Source: a virus. Taken from it: DNA of 41,016 nucleotides. Made by a program: the position numbers and the translations under genes. The stretch is from the IMG/VR virus record IMGVR_UViG_3300017725_000016, positions 1-41,016 of that record. The stretch is one strand, 5' to 3'. Below the pieces are notes generated by a model. It made no database searches, was not told the DNA's origin, and saw only the letters and a list, made by a program, of their open reading frames with translations. Positions 1,323 to 38,339 of the stretch are shown piece by piece (positions within the stretch are counted from its first letter, which is position 1; the number at the start of each line of letters is the position of its first letter).

Positions 1323-1385
1323 TTTTGTTTGTCTCTAGGTATTCAGCCTAGACTGATGAGCTCCAGTAGAGCGAAACAAACAAAA
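1323..1385 (+). ncRNA. Hammerhead ribozyme, type III (HHR1)
   Basis: All parts of a hammerhead are present. Stem III is TTTTGTTTG (1323-1331) with CAAACAAAA (1377-1385), 9 bp. The cleavage triplet is GTC (1331-1333), with cutting between 1333 and 1334. Stem I is TCTAGG (1334-1339) with CCTAGA (1347-1352), loop TATTCAG. The core CTGATGA is at 1353-1359. Stem II is GCTC (1360-1363) with GAGC (1369-1372), loop CAGTA. The second core element GAAA is at 1373-1376. No mismatch is needed. Cleavage would leave a downstream mRNA with a 5'-OH and the stem I hairpin at its very end, 67 nt before the ATG at 1401. The 3' strand of stem III is also the A-rich leader of that gene. Confidence 0.93.
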
Positions 1386-3263: not shown

Positions 3264-4052
3264 ATGAAACTTAGACAAGTATATGACAAGCAAGACTGGG
3301 AAAAGTGCCAGTCTCAAAGAGCGTTGTCTGTTATAGATATAATAGGCAACATAGAACCTAAAAATGTAAATGATGAGCATATTGAAAAAGTTAGAAATAG
3401 ACTTGAAAAAAAAGGTTTATCAGGTGCTACAATTAATAGATACTTAGCGTCTTTATCTAAACTTTTAAAGTATGCTCATAAGCGTTATACAATTTTTAAT
3501 ATGGAGCGTATGCCGCACATTGAATGGTATAAAGAGAGCAAAGGTAGAATAAGATATATAAGCAAAAAAGAAGAAGCTAAAATTATTGAGCTATTAAAGG
3601 ACTCAGAATATCTGAGCCTTTATCTTTTTCTTATGGATACTGGAATGAGATTGAGCGAGGCACTTTCATTTACTAAAGAGGATATTCAAGAGCTTGGAGA
3701 CAAAACTTATATAACTTTATATGGTACTAAAAATGGAGACACTAGAAGCGTTCCATTAACAGACAGAGCCAAGAAACTAGGAGTCAATACTTTTAAACAT
3801 TTAGATTATTGGAAAGCTGAGAACACTTGGAAACAGTTGCGTAAAGACATGGGACTAGCAAATGATAAGCAATTTGTTATTCATGCTTTACGTCATACTT
3901 GTGCGTCAAGATTGGCTCAGTCAGGTAAGATTGAGTTACACATAATAAAAGAATTATTAGGTCATAGAAGCTATAATACGACTTTAAGATATAGTCATTT
4001 TAAACCTAGTAATTTATTAGGAGCGGTGGACATTTTAAATAACTTAGATTAA
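3264..4052 (+). CDS. Tyrosine-type site-specific integrase
   Basis: The protein has 262 residues. An N-terminal SAM-like core-binding region (about residues 15-90, including a VRNRLEKKGLSGATINRYL pattern) precedes the catalytic domain. The catalytic set is complete: Arg in TGMRLSEA (about 127), Lys in GTKNGDTRSVPL, HALRH (about 205-209), His in LLGHRSY (about 233) and the nucleophile Tyr in TLRYSHF (about 242). It should insert the phage genome into a host attachment site. The ATG at 3264 is chosen for AAAGGAG upstream; a longer frame runs back through the terminator. An integrase just ahead of the RNA polymerase is the arrangement seen in integrating pelagiphages. The attachment site was not found. 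Confidence 0.93.
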   Translation: MKLRQVYDKQDWEKCQSQRALSVIDIIGNIEPKNVNDEHIEKVRNRLEKKGLSGATINRYLASLSKLLKYAHKRYTIFNMERMPHIEWYKESKGRIRYISKKEEAKIIELLKDSEYLSLYLFLMDTGMRLSEALSFTKEDIQELGDKTYITLYGTKNGDTRSVPLTDRAKKLGVNTFKHLDYWKAENTWKQLRKDMGLANDKQFVIHALRHTCASRLAQSGKIELHIIKELLGHRSYNTTLRYSHFKPSNLLGAVDILNNLD

Positions 4053-4069
4053 AGTACCCATTATAGATT
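4050..4069 (+). promoter_or_regulatory. Phage RNA polymerase promoter P3
   Basis: TAAAGTACCCATTATAGATT overlaps the integrase stop codon and lies about 30 bp upstream of the RNA polymerase ATG. It implies that the phage polymerase transcribes its own gene once the first molecules are made. Confidence 0.8.
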
Positions 4070-4100
4070 AACCACAACCATCACTTAAGGAGTGTTAATA

Positions 4101-6545
4101 ATGACAAAACTATTAGAAGTAATGCCTACTTATAAAGACCAAGTTGAACATGAAAAGCAAATGCTTGAGCTTGGAAAACAAAGAACTAATAAAAGAAGAC
4201 AGTCTCATGTTGAGCGTGAGGAAGAGTCTGTAACGAGTTACGGAAAAGTAATGGTAGCAAATACCATAAGACCTTTAGCAATAGGTATAAAAGAATACCT
4301 TGAGACATGTGCTAAGAATACAATAGGGCAACCACCAGTAGCTTTCATGCACCTTGCAGGAGTAGACCCTGAAATATCCGCCCTCATCACAGCCAAACAT
4401 ATCATTAATACAATCACACAATACAAACCACTTACCGCTACTTGTATTAGCTTAGGTGGTAAAATCGAAACAGAAGAACAGCTTAAGAATTTTCAGTTTT
4501 TAAATCCTGAGCTTTACCAAGTAGTAAAGTTAGACCTTGATAAGAGGTCATGGAACTATGCTTACAAAAGAAGGAAGCTAAGGGAGACAGCCAAAAGAGG
4601 AGAGGTAGCTTGGACTGAGTGGACTACACCTCAAAAACTACATGTTGGTATTCGTCTAGTTGAGCTTATGGTTGAGAAGACAGGGCTAATTGAAATTGGC
4701 ACTGAGACTATCAATCGTAAAAGAACTAAGATTATTAAACAGACTCAAAAAACTAGAGAGTGGATTAAAAATAGAAATGAGTTTAACGAACTGTTAAACC
4801 CAGAGTACCTGCCAACAGTTATGCCGCCGAAACAATGGACGTCTGTAAGTGGCGGCGGTTATTGGACTTCAGAGCTACCAGAGCTTGACCTTGTTAAACA
4901 AAGAAACAAGAAGTTTAAGAAAGAGCTTGAGAACTTTAAAATGCCTGAAGTTTACAGTGCAGTAAATGCAATGCAGAACACAGCGTTTAAGGTAAACAAC
5001 TTTATACTAGGCGTTATGCAAGAGGCTTGGGACAAAGGAATAGCCATAGGCGGTATGCCGCCATTAACAAACATGGAGATACCTAATAAGCCACATGACA
5101 TAGACACTAATGCTGAGAGTAGAAAAGCATGGAAGAAACAAGCAGTCGTAGCTCATACTGAAAATGCTAGAATGTTTAGTAAGCGTTTATTGTATGCTAA
5201 AATTATTTGGTTAGCTCAAAAGTTTAAGCAATACAAAACAATTTACTTTCCATTACAATTAGATTTCAGAGGGCGTTGTTATGCTGTCCCTGCTTTTCTT
5301 AACTATCAAAGTATAAGTGGAGCTAAGGCTTTGTTAAACTTTAGTTATGGTAAAGCTATCACAAAAGAAAACAAAGGTGATTTCTGGTTAGCCGTACATG
5401 GAGCTAACATGTGGGGTAAAGATAAGCAAACACTTGAAGGTAGAGTTGAGTGGGTAAAAGAAAATGAAGACATGCTTATTAAATGTGCTGAAGACCCATT
5501 TACTAATAGACAGTGGGAAGACGCTTCATCTCCGTTTCAAGCTCTAGCATTTTGTGAAGAGTGGAGACAGTTTAAAGAACAAGGCTATGGGTTTGTCTCA
5601 ACAATACCAGTTGCGATTGATGGCTCATGTAATGGACTACAATTATATTCTTTAATGCTTAAAGATAAAGAAGCAGGAAAATTAGTTAATGTAGTGCCAA
5701 GTAAAACACCACAAGACATTTATCAGTTAGTTGCTGATAGTGTGACTGAGCGTTTAAAAGAAGAAGCACAAAAAGGAACAGTCTATGCTCAGATGTGGTT
5801 AGACTATAAAGTTAAGCGGAGCACAACAAAGAGAAGTATTATGACAATCTGTTATGGGTCAACAAGATACTCATGCACAGACTTTGTTGTTGAAGACTTA
5901 ACTAAACGACAGGATAAAGGAGAGAAGCACCCATTCTTTACAGATGTTTTTAAACCTGCAAGTTTCTTAGCAGGAATTATCTGGGACAGTATTGGAGACA
6001 ATTTAAAAAGTGCTCGAATAGGAATGGATTATCTGCAAACGATTTCAAGATTGTTAGCAAAAGAACAGTTACCTATTCATTGGATAACACCAGTTGGATT
6101 TCCAGTGTATCAATCATATCCTGAAATGAAAAGCAAACGAGTCAAAGCAATGTTAATGGGTGAAGTTATTAAACCTAGAATAAACACTGAGACTGATAAG
6201 ACCGACAAGTTGCGAATGAGTAATGCTATTGCACCTAATCTGGTTCATAGCACTGACTCTGCCGCAATGATGAAGACTACAAACATAGCTTATGAAAATG
6301 GCATTAGAAATTTTTGTAATGTCCATGATTCATTTGCTACTACAGCAGGAGATGTAGAAACATTGACTGCAAGTTTAAAGGAAGCGTTCATACAAATATT
6401 TACTGAACATGATGTGTTGAAAGAATTTAAAGAAGATGTCTTTCACCAGATACCTGAAAACTTAAGAGCTAAATTACCTGACGTACCTGAGAAGGGTGAT
6501 TTAGATATAACATTACTCAGGGAATGTGACTTTTTCTTTGCTTAA
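4101..6545 (+). CDS. T7-type single-subunit DNA-directed RNA polymerase
   Basis: The protein has 814 residues (T7: 883). Hallmarks in order: LDFRGRCYAVP (about 386; T7 DWRGRVYAV), the catalytic Asp in AIDGSCNGLQ (about 506), the Lys and Tyr in TKRSIMTICYGS (about 575-587; T7 Lys631 and Tyr639), NVHDSFATT with the second catalytic Asp (about 741), and a C-terminus ending in DFFFA like T7 DFAFA. The specificity loop region (KRVKAMLMGEVIKPRINTE) differs from T7 at the base-reading positions, fitting a different promoter sequence. AAGGAG at 4087 sets the ATG at 4101. It would transcribe the middle and late genes from the TAwAGTwCCC promoters listed here. Confidence 0.96.
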   Translation: MTKLLEVMPTYKDQVEHEKQMLELGKQRTNKRRQSHVEREEESVTSYGKVMVANTIRPLAIGIKEYLETCAKNTIGQPPVAFMHLAGVDPEISALITAKHIINTITQYKPLTATCISLGGKIETEEQLKNFQFLNPELYQVVKLDLDKRSWNYAYKRRKLRETAKRGEVAWTEWTTPQKLHVGIRLVELMVEKTGLIEIGTETINRKRTKIIKQTQKTREWIKNRNEFNELLNPEYLPTVMPPKQWTSVSGGGYWTSELPELDLVKQRNKKFKKELENFKMPEVYSAVNAMQNTAFKVNNFILGVMQEAWDKGIAIGGMPPLTNMEIPNKPHDIDTNAESRKAWKKQAVVAHTENARMFSKRLLYAKIIWLAQKFKQYKTIYFPLQLDFRGRCYAVPAFLNYQSISGAKALLNFSYGKAITKENKGDFWLAVHGANMWGKDKQTLEGRVEWVKENEDMLIKCAEDPFTNRQWEDASSPFQALAFCEEWRQFKEQGYGFVSTIPVAIDGSCNGLQLYSLMLKDKEAGKLVNVVPSKTPQDIYQLVADSVTERLKEEAQKGTVYAQMWLDYKVKRSTTKRSIMTICYGSTRYSCTDFVVEDLTKRQDKGEKHPFFTDVFKPASFLAGIIWDSIGDNLKSARIGMDYLQTISRLLAKEQLPIHWITPVGFPVYQSYPEMKSKRVKAMLMGEVIKPRINTETDKTDKLRMSNAIAPNLVHSTDSAAMMKTTNIAYENGIRNFCNVHDSFATTAGDVETLTASLKEAFIQIFTEHDVLKEFKEDVFHQIPENLRAKLPDVPEKGDLDITLLRECDFFFA

Positions 6546-6581: not shown

Positions 6582-6601
6582 TAAAGTACCCTTAATAGAC
6601 A
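6582..6601 (+). promoter_or_regulatory. Phage RNA polymerase promoter P4
   Basis: TAAAGTACCCTTAATAGACA lies between the polymerase stop and the small gene at 6617. The position matches the T7 phi1.1 promoters, which also serve the primary replication origin there. It should drive the SSB, endonuclease and gp3.5-like genes up to the terminator at 8159. Confidence 0.8.
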
Positions 6602-15666: not shown

Positions 15667-16617
15667 ATGGGATTATTTGAAGAACGAGTACATTACAAAC
15701 CATTTCAATACGAATGGGCTTTTGAAGCGTATGAGCTACAGCAACAAATGCACTGGCTTCCTAGTGAAGTACCTTTGCATGAAGATGTAAGAGATTGGAA
15801 TGATAGATTAACAGCTAATGAGAAAAATCTGATTAATCAAATACTAAAGTTCTTCACACAAGGTGATGTAGATATAGCAAAAGCATACCTTGATAATTAC
15901 ATTCCTAAATTTAAACCACCAGAAATAAGAATGATGTTGTCTGCTATTGCAACAAGTGAAGCAAATCATGCACAAAGTTATTCATTACTAAATGATACAA
16001 TCGGTTTACCTGAATCTGATTACAAAGCATTTCAAGAATATAAACAGATGGCTGATAAACATGAATACTTATTTAAAAGTAAAGGCAAAGGTTTATCAGG
16101 ACTAGCTAGAGAGATGGCATGTTTCTCTGCATTTGGTGAAGGCTTACAACTGTTTGCTTCTTTTGTAATGCTACTAAACTTCTCAAGGTTTGGTCGTATG
16201 AAAGGAATGTGTCAGATAGTTACATGGTCTATAAGAGATGAGACACACCATGTTGAAAGCATGATTAAATTGTTTCATCAATTAATAAAAGAGAACCCTG
16301 ATATTTGGACAGAAAAATTTAAAGCAAGTATCTATCAAACATGTAGAGATATGGTAGACTTAGAAGATAGGTTTATTGATTTAGCATTTGATATGGGTGG
16401 TGTGCAGGGACTAACACCTGACCAAGTTAAAGAATATATAAGATACATTGCAGATAGAAGACTATTACAACTGTCTTTAAAACCTAATTATGGTGTAAAA
16501 CACAACCCTTTAGGTTGGTTAGATTGGGTTTTAAATGGAGTAGAACATGCGAATTTCTTTGAAAACAGGGCTACTGAGTACAATAAAGGGACACTCACAG
16601 GCTCACTATGGAAGTAA
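15667..16617 (+). CDS. Ribonucleotide reductase class I, beta subunit
   Basis: The protein has 316 residues. It holds the di-metal site and radical: Asp in FFTQGDVDIA, then ATSEANHAQSYSLLNDTIG, which supplies Glu, His and, four residues after the His, the radical Tyr (about 98-105). The later ligands are Glu in FGEGLQLF and Glu/His in IRDETHHVE. All six ligand positions and the Tyr are present, so an ordinary Tyr-radical enzyme is expected. It works with the alpha subunit encoded at 13734. The stop codon TAA is the first part of promoter P5. Confidence 0.93.
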   Translation: MGLFEERVHYKPFQYEWAFEAYELQQQMHWLPSEVPLHEDVRDWNDRLTANEKNLINQILKFFTQGDVDIAKAYLDNYIPKFKPPEIRMMLSAIATSEANHAQSYSLLNDTIGLPESDYKAFQEYKQMADKHEYLFKSKGKGLSGLAREMACFSAFGEGLQLFASFVMLLNFSRFGRMKGMCQIVTWSIRDETHHVESMIKLFHQLIKENPDIWTEKFKASIYQTCRDMVDLEDRFIDLAFDMGGVQGLTPDQVKEYIRYIADRRLLQLSLKPNYGVKHNPLGWLDWVLNGVEHANFFENRATEYNKGTLTGSLWK

Positions 16618-16634
16618 AGTACCCTTTTTAGAAG
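16615..16634 (+). promoter_or_regulatory. Phage RNA polymerase promoter P5
   Basis: TAAAGTACCCTTTTTAGAAG begins at the nrdB stop codon and is followed by AAGGAAA and the ATG at 16643. It should start the head-assembly transcription unit, which ends at the terminator after the capsid gene. Confidence 0.8.
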
Positions 16635-32418: not shown

Positions 32419-32438
32419 TAAAGTACCCCTTTTAGAAG
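32419..32438 (+). promoter_or_regulatory. Phage RNA polymerase promoter P6
   Basis: TAAAGTACCCCTTTTAGAAG lies 2 bp after the gp16-like stop. It starts the transcription unit for the fibre cluster and lysis-region genes, as T7 phi17 does before gene 17. Confidence 0.78.
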
Positions 32439-38114: not shown

Positions 38115-38339
38115 ATGAAGACTGCGTTAGTAATTGCATTACTTATGTTTACACAGGAGAGTGGTGATAAACCATACGAATTTATGATTACTGATTCAAT
38201 CGGAAAATGTTTGGAGCTTAAGCGTGAAGCTGAAAGAAATACAAACCCAGATAGAATAAGATGGAGTTGTAGAGAAGTCATGGCAGAACTAGAGATAGTT
38301 CATGGCAAATTACACATTAACAAAATAGTAGAGGAATAA
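38115..38339 (+). CDS. Small exported protein (74 aa)
   Basis: It starts MKTALVIALLMFTQESGDKP, a short signal-like segment, and continues with a helical soluble domain with two Cys (IGKCLEL, WSCREVM) about 20 residues apart. AAAGGAGAAC lies before the ATG. It resembles in plan the Cys-containing exported protein at 37123. Probably periplasmic; no known family. Confidence 0.62.
   Translation: MKTALVIALLMFTQESGDKPYEFMITDSIGKCLELKREAERNTNPDRIRWSCREVMAELEIVHGKLHINKIVEE

Follow-up and report, generated by a model that had tools for sequence, protein, structure and literature searches.

Predicted hammerhead ribozymes of all three topologies ahead of early genes in a T7-like pelagiphage

The window, by which we mean the whole stretch of DNA analysed here, is a virus record of 41,016 bases (IMGVR_UViG_3300017725_000016). 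The RNA polymerase encoded at 4092-6545 shares 99% identity with that of Pelagibacter phage HTVC109P, and the phage belongs to the genus Pelagivirus in the Autographiviridae, which makes it a T7-like phage with a SAR11 host. SAR11 is the commonest bacterium of the ocean. The gene order runs from the lysozyme (99-563) through small early genes and the integrase (3264-4052) to the RNA polymerase. Five + strand matches to AAAGTNCCCNTTNTAG (780-795, 4051-4066, 6583-6598, 16616-16631 and 32420-32435; the search pattern expects 0.69) are likely promoters of the phage RNA polymerase. The stretch AAAGTTCCCATTGGGAG near 2446 resembles these sites and falls within the leader of the type I hammerhead described below. 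The features of the early region are the following.

1173-1200, + strand: candidate host early promoter, TTTGCA-16-AATAAT (9/12 matches), directly 5' of the structured leader RNA
1205-1320, + strand: conserved structured leader RNA, with P1 (1208-1215/1264-1271), a hairpin at about 1221-1239 and P4 (1283-1288/1315-1320)
1323-1385, + strand: predicted type III hammerhead ribozyme with its cut at 1333^1334 (descriptor, Rfam match, covariation in relatives)
1323-1331, + strand: stem III 5' strand, UUUUGUUUG, the last paired bases of the 5' cleavage product
1334-1352, + strand: stem I hairpin (1334-1340/1346-1352), the 5'-terminal hairpin of the mRNA after the predicted cut
1377-1385, + strand: stem III 3' strand, CAAACAAAA, which also serves the gene at 1401 as its A/C-rich leader
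1387-1392, + strand: Shine-Dalgarno sequence AAAGGA, outside stem III (ATG at 1401)
1401-1760, + strand: early gene, 119 aa, with a 78% identical homologue in HTVC034P that has no hammerhead
2002-2060, + strand: predicted type II hammerhead ribozyme cut at 2032^2033, followed by a free leader
2094-2378, + strand: early gene, 94 aa, with a weak TMEM65-like membrane match
2379-2439, + strand: predicted type I hammerhead ribozyme, cleavage 2433^2434, weak RAGATH-1-hammerhead match
2466-2471, + strand: GCAACA, a second stem I 5' strand that is predicted to pair with UGUUGC (2434-2439) at the 5' end created by the cut
2494-2625, + strand: early gene, 43 aa

Sequences like the promoter candidate at 1173-1200 also lie 5' of the structured RNA in relatives. 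Promoter matches in total show no excess over shuffles.

The preliminary description placed a type III hammerhead at 1323-1385, and it is present there base for base, as can be read directly in the sequence. The core consists of CUGAUGA (1353-1359), stem II (1360-1363/1369-1372) and GAA (1373-1375; GAAA at 1373-1376). Loops close stems I and II and stem III is open, as in the type III topology. The cleavage site GUC (1331-1333) is of the NUH kind, U1332 and A1376 form the A15.1-U16.1 pair, and cleavage would occur at C1333^U1334. By folding, the first 3 nt of the product are paired in type III products. The Rfam model Hammerhead_3 (RF00008) matches with an E-value of 9e-7 and 41.2 bits, which is under its gathering score of 48.5, a curated cut-off and not a mechanistic feature. 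A default Rfam scan of the window gave no match, and the Hammerhead_3 match appeared only in E-value mode. The element shares its core, its three helices and its GUC cleavage site with RF00008 type III hammerheads; unlike these, it has an A/U-rich stem III whose 3' strand is the leader of the mRNA. By its sequence, 1323-1385 is a textbook type III hammerhead for which self-cleavage is predicted.

With a descriptor written to cover all three circular permutations, exactly three hammerheads were found in the 41 kb, one per topology (III, II and I), all on the + strand and each 5' of a short early gene. At a score of at least 30, the descriptor had zero matches in 12.5 Mb of dinucleotide-shuffled strand and 260 matches in 2.5 Mb of real sequence, where the 260 is no background rate, since part of the set was fetched with the hammerhead-core pattern. 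Type I copies match the RAGATH-1 hammerhead (RF03152) weakly, well under its gathering score of 56.3 (29.1 bits, E 0.054 for the copy in the window). The leaders that follow the other two copies, GUAAACAAACAAAACAAACAGGAG (from 2061) and CAAACAAAACAAGGAG (from 2472), are open by folding, in agreement with the earlier claim of a free leader in both. In the type II copy (2039-2064), we noticed by eye only that loop I UUAU could pair with GUAA after stem II; a similar loop pseudoknot has been described for type II hammerheads (PMC3088659).

Loci of relatives were fetched by RNA polymerase similarity (80 loci) and by the core pattern (71 stretches). Once near-duplicates had been taken out, these contained 43 type I, 23 type III and 16 type II copies, each followed by an ORF with a ribosome-binding site, and a single locus carries up to five hammerheads. 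Covariation was 0.480 for type III (vs 0.125 shuffled), with 92.7% of cells paired and a strong signal in stems I and II, 0.760 for type I (vs 0.210 shuffled) and 0.457 for type II (vs 0.124 shuffled). In 33 whole records searched with the covariance models R1-R3, matches lay in two places only: from the left end up to the RNA polymerase gene, or at the other end of the record, which adjoins the pre-polymerase region once the linear record is wrapped. A type I copy is present in HTVC022P (MH598798, predicted cut at 2353^2354) and a type III copy, at 38,163, in the roseophage CRP-125. A scan of a collection of bacterial and archaeal genomes gave 118 pattern matches, with true copies in one contig only (L471); this contig is titled as a Neomarinimicrobiota MAG and is probably phage sequence. 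L117, L111 and L137, apparently from other phage groups, have hammerheads 5' of genes, with two type II copies in tandem in L117 (cleavage sites 1799 and 2176); the arrangement may thus reach beyond pelagiphages.

In five annotated isolates, hammerheads occur at 10 of the 16 early gaps of at least 60 nt, at none of the 27 shorter gaps and at none of the 67 gene starts that follow the polymerase (p 4e-6). The predicted cut sites lie between separately translated early genes only, as they would in RNase III-like processing. The 10/16 count leaves out two further hammerheads of HTVC109P (L162), since gp03 and gp05 are annotated from 589 and 1121, so that their reading frames include the ribozyme. 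The annotated start of gp49 in CRP-125 (L163, 1642) also crosses a hammerhead, and the true starts of all three genes are likely downstream, past the leader. Homologues of the 2094 gene whose start touches or overlaps the gene before them have no hammerhead (HTVC109P gp04, L033, L026 and L077), and the same holds for the homologue of the 1401 gene in HTVC034P (gp03). The latter phage is not assigned to Autographiviridae, and its homologue (809-1147 in L002) starts a few bases after the preceding gene. In L035 and L056, a gap precedes the 2094 homologue, yet no hammerhead was found there; the association of gaps with hammerheads is therefore a tendency. Early gaps without a hammerhead are also found before the RNA polymerase gene itself and at 2032 and 2796 in HTVC109P, and the covariance models detected zero hammerheads in HTVC134P, HTVC200P and HTVC119P. 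Because such gaps and such phages exist, the device is not essential to this lifestyle.

The sequence downstream of the cut is similar for all topologies. In types II and III, the predicted product mRNA begins with the stem I hairpin. The type I cut alone should leave a single-stranded 5' end, and owing to the second copy of a stem I strand further downstream, the hairpin can re-form. Elsewhere, the type I pairs read UAUUGC..GCAAUA, UUUUGC..GCAAAA, UUCAGC..GCUGA and UACAAC..GUUGUA. Across eight stem I families, the second copy matches its own family by 5.23 nt vs 4.24 nt permuted (p 0.0001); single cases are individually weak, with p<0.05 in 11 of 34. The A/C leaders are alike after all three hammerhead types, and the spacing from hammerhead to start codon is near-constant among relatives. 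Within the window, the leader motif stands 5' of all three hammerhead genes and of 4 of about 45 others (including capsid and integrase). The different topologies thus seem to arrive at the same arrangement, a 5'-terminal hairpin with an open leader behind it. In E. coli, a 5' hairpin together with a 5'-hydroxyl stabilises mRNA, and we infer the same for SAR11.

The type III copy differs from the others in its leader. As the preliminary description had recognised, ribozyme and leader share bases here: 1377-1385 is both a strand of stem III and the leader, an arrangement that is common in type III relatives. From this it had been proposed that stem III masks the leader until the cut, that the 5' strand then leaves with the upstream RNA and that cleavage activates translation of the 1401 gene. 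Folding at 20 C agrees with the claimed change in leader accessibility, as 1377-1385 is predicted to be unpaired at 0.09 in the uncut and 0.85 in the cut RNA. Across relatives, the mean for the leader rises from 0.39 to 0.67 in type III and is unchanged in type II (0.61 to 0.60). The near-fixed sequence of stem III also speaks for the switch: its inner seven pairs are UGUUUGU/ACAAACA in 19 to 23 of the 23 type III sequences; in type I, both sides of stem III vary at 7 of 9 pairs. A near-invariant stem III beside variable stems I and II fits a second constraint on the 3' strand, namely a leader that doubles as a helix, and shared ancestry of the leader could contribute to the invariance. Furthermore, pairing of stem III outward from the core exceeds that obtained when flanks were exchanged between copies (6.84 vs 6.04 pairs, p 0.0005), and stem III extends into the Shine-Dalgarno sequence in five relatives (L100, L114, L130, L135 and L105). 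In the window copy, however, the Shine-Dalgarno sequence (unpaired 0.69 uncut vs 0.72 cut) and the AUG (0.04 vs 0.02) are predicted to fold alike in both states, so neither is masked and then exposed, and only the upstream leader changes. Masking is also not common to the array, because the leaders of type I, type II and short-stem-III type III copies (e.g. L003, L038 and L105) are free whether cut or uncut; for the type I copy in the window, cutting brings no gain (0.88 to 0.72). Release of the 5' strand is not automatic either, as it stays paired until the duplex dissociates. The predicted Kd of the separated strands is about 1 nM (20 C, 1 M salt), which implies slow dissociation at sea temperature, with an off-rate near 0.001 per second given an assumed on-rate of 1e6 per M per s. 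There is no sign of regulated cleavage; the ribozymes presumably cut constitutively as transcription proceeds, so that an 'off' state may not exist. In phage Eistla (L151, about 3706-3855), the core at the type III position is replaced by a very stable element (z -6.3), which may be a ribozyme of another kind or a degenerate one. Pairing of the UUUGUUUGUU strand with the AACAAACAAA leader persists there, and its retention without a hammerhead core counts against the switch. We thus regard it as unlikely that cleavage switches on the gene at 1401. The shared bases are real and an effect on translation is possible, but not as the clean switch that was proposed; the opening of the leader would be a modest secondary effect and not a dedicated on/off switch.

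A different purpose of the first cut is suggested by the structured RNA of about 115 nt, which is found directly 5' of the type III hammerhead also in L149, L136, L165, L114, L148 and others; two divergent versions (groups A and B) lie at the same place in other pelagiphages. Its P4 encloses a GAAGGCG/AGUAGGU internal loop, and 1205-1320 has no match in Rfam. It may act as a small RNA, as an antiterminator or simply as a leader. The predicted cut at 1333^1334 would separate this RNA from the mRNA, and the main purpose of the first-gene copy might be to form the 3' end of a small RNA, released with a 2',3'-cyclic phosphate, with the mRNA end as a by-product. This fits the compensatory changes that conserve the RNA (in 11 relatives, P1 is 97.7% paired, and both bases vary in 6 of its 8 pairs; covariation 0.592 vs 0.213 shuffled) and the fact that in many relatives it is flanked by a candidate early promoter and the type III hammerhead. 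In L099, L101, L105 and L135, UGUUUGU can also re-pair with an upstream ACAAACA/ACAGACA, which would give the released RNA a 3' hairpin. This re-pairing is absent from the window, and 3'-end formation leaves the type I and II copies as well as the intergenic type III copies (second copies in L038, L100 and L105) unexplained, so that we consider it improbable as the main purpose. In a wider reading, each independent translation unit of the early operon would be defined by a self-cleaving ribozyme of its own, helix III of the type III copies would also be a translation mask removed by the cut, and the first cut would release a new structured RNA; as a whole, this reading is rather doubtful.

Several further observations concern this region. 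In group A loci (L164, L088, L101, L169, L043 and others), UGUUUGU pairs either with the leader, giving the active ribozyme, or with the upstream ACAAACA/ACAGACA, which is possibly a competing hairpin. Upstream re-pairing of the type III U-strand was rejected as a general feature (p<0.05 in 6 of 22, none in the window). Rho-independent termination via the U-rich stem III strand was likewise rejected, the terminator scan listing no + strand site there. A GGGC/GCCC pseudoknot in the upstream RNA, seen by eye, was dropped because the window and several relatives break the pairing. Scans of 2.9 million contigs for GAAGGCG..AGTAGGT and for GGCACGGTCTCAAG gave mostly chance matches and were set aside.

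According to sequence and comparison with relatives, a hammerhead stands ahead of each of several separately translated early genes, in all three topologies. We conclude that the hammerheads are probably constitutive processing sites of the early operon. The ribozymes would cut while the long early transcript is being made, and the downstream mRNA from each cut would carry a 5'-hydroxyl and begin directly with a hairpin, followed by a single-stranded A/C leader and the Shine-Dalgarno sequence. The hairpin would be stem I in types II and III and would be re-formed from the second strand copy in type I. For types I and II, the stem III hairpin would form the end of the upstream RNA, whereas cutting of the type III copy would in addition open the leader and detach the upstream structured RNA. 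Such processing would protect and standardise the early mRNAs and insulate their translation from upstream sequence. We base this conclusion on the three intact hammerheads at a nil chance level, the helix covariation in all types and their confinement to the pre-polymerase region or the adjoining end, where 10 of 16 large early gaps are occupied. It is further based on the lack of hammerheads where starts of the same genes abut or overlap the preceding gene, on the second copies that track eight stem I sequences and on the similar leaders. In addition, the RNA polymerase, MarR and integrase genes of the same block are expressed early in infection by HTVC022P (PMC12753301). The second-copy hairpin of type I has only 4 bp in several members, which counts against processing. 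Alternatively, the hammerheads might be selfish elements or relics that have spread among small genes of the phage and play no part in expression. Prokaryotic hammerheads with no established role have been described beside small unconserved ORFs and genes of phages (PMC6155905, PMC10085705), and the early genes here have no assigned function. Against such an origin stand the compensatory changes that maintain helices and cores, the near-constant start-codon spacing with shared leaders, the restriction to one operon and the covarying second copy in type I, which make a selfish or relic origin very improbable.

Processing by hammerheads would resemble a well-known step in T7, whose early transcript is cut by RNase III into separate mRNAs. 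As in T7, the proposed cuts divide an early operon that extends up to and includes the phage RNA polymerase gene into mRNAs; unlike in T7, self-cleaving RNA would replace the host nuclease, and the ends would be 5'-OH and 2',3'-cyclic phosphate. The synthetic insulator RiboJ combines a hammerhead, a hairpin and an open ribosome-binding site, which yields a uniform 5' UTR. The pelagiphage copies have the same order of parts; unlike RiboJ, they are natural, arrayed and of three topologies, and their hairpin is stem I or a rebuilt stem I. Prokaryotic hammerheads in tandem next to ORFs have been described in the triple array of Agrobacterium/ardA and in the haloviruses HF1/HF2 (PMC3088659). In the haloviruses, 13 nt separate the hammerhead HHphage from the early helicase gene that follows it, and a 5' end has been mapped at most 3 nt from the cleavage site (PMC3088659). 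Like these arrays, the window has several hammerheads in one transcript (active there, predicted here); it differs from them in having three topologies in one T7-like early operon, a shared leader and a covarying type I post-cleavage hairpin.

Tandem hammerheads, natural type II forms and an association with phages were thus already known (PMC3088659, PMC6155905). In the open-access literature searched, we found no paper linking pelagiphages and hammerheads. Neither an early operon with all three topologies as gene-by-gene makers of 5' ends, nor a leader sequence serving as helix III, nor a covarying rebuilt type I hairpin was found in the literature searched. The role of hammerheads in bacteria and phages has been called an open question (PMC6155905), and their gene associations have been called unexplained (PMC10085705). 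Here, three topologies in one operon share one anatomy of cut site, 5' hairpin, A/C leader and start codon, and this in phages of SAR11 that can be cultured. RNA-seq of HTVC022P infection has been published (PMC12753301), so that the processing hypothesis is testable from existing data. If it is true, the phage carries an RNA-based substitute for a host nuclease together with a natural version of an engineered insulator, and phage hammerhead ribozymes would gain a clear, testable job.
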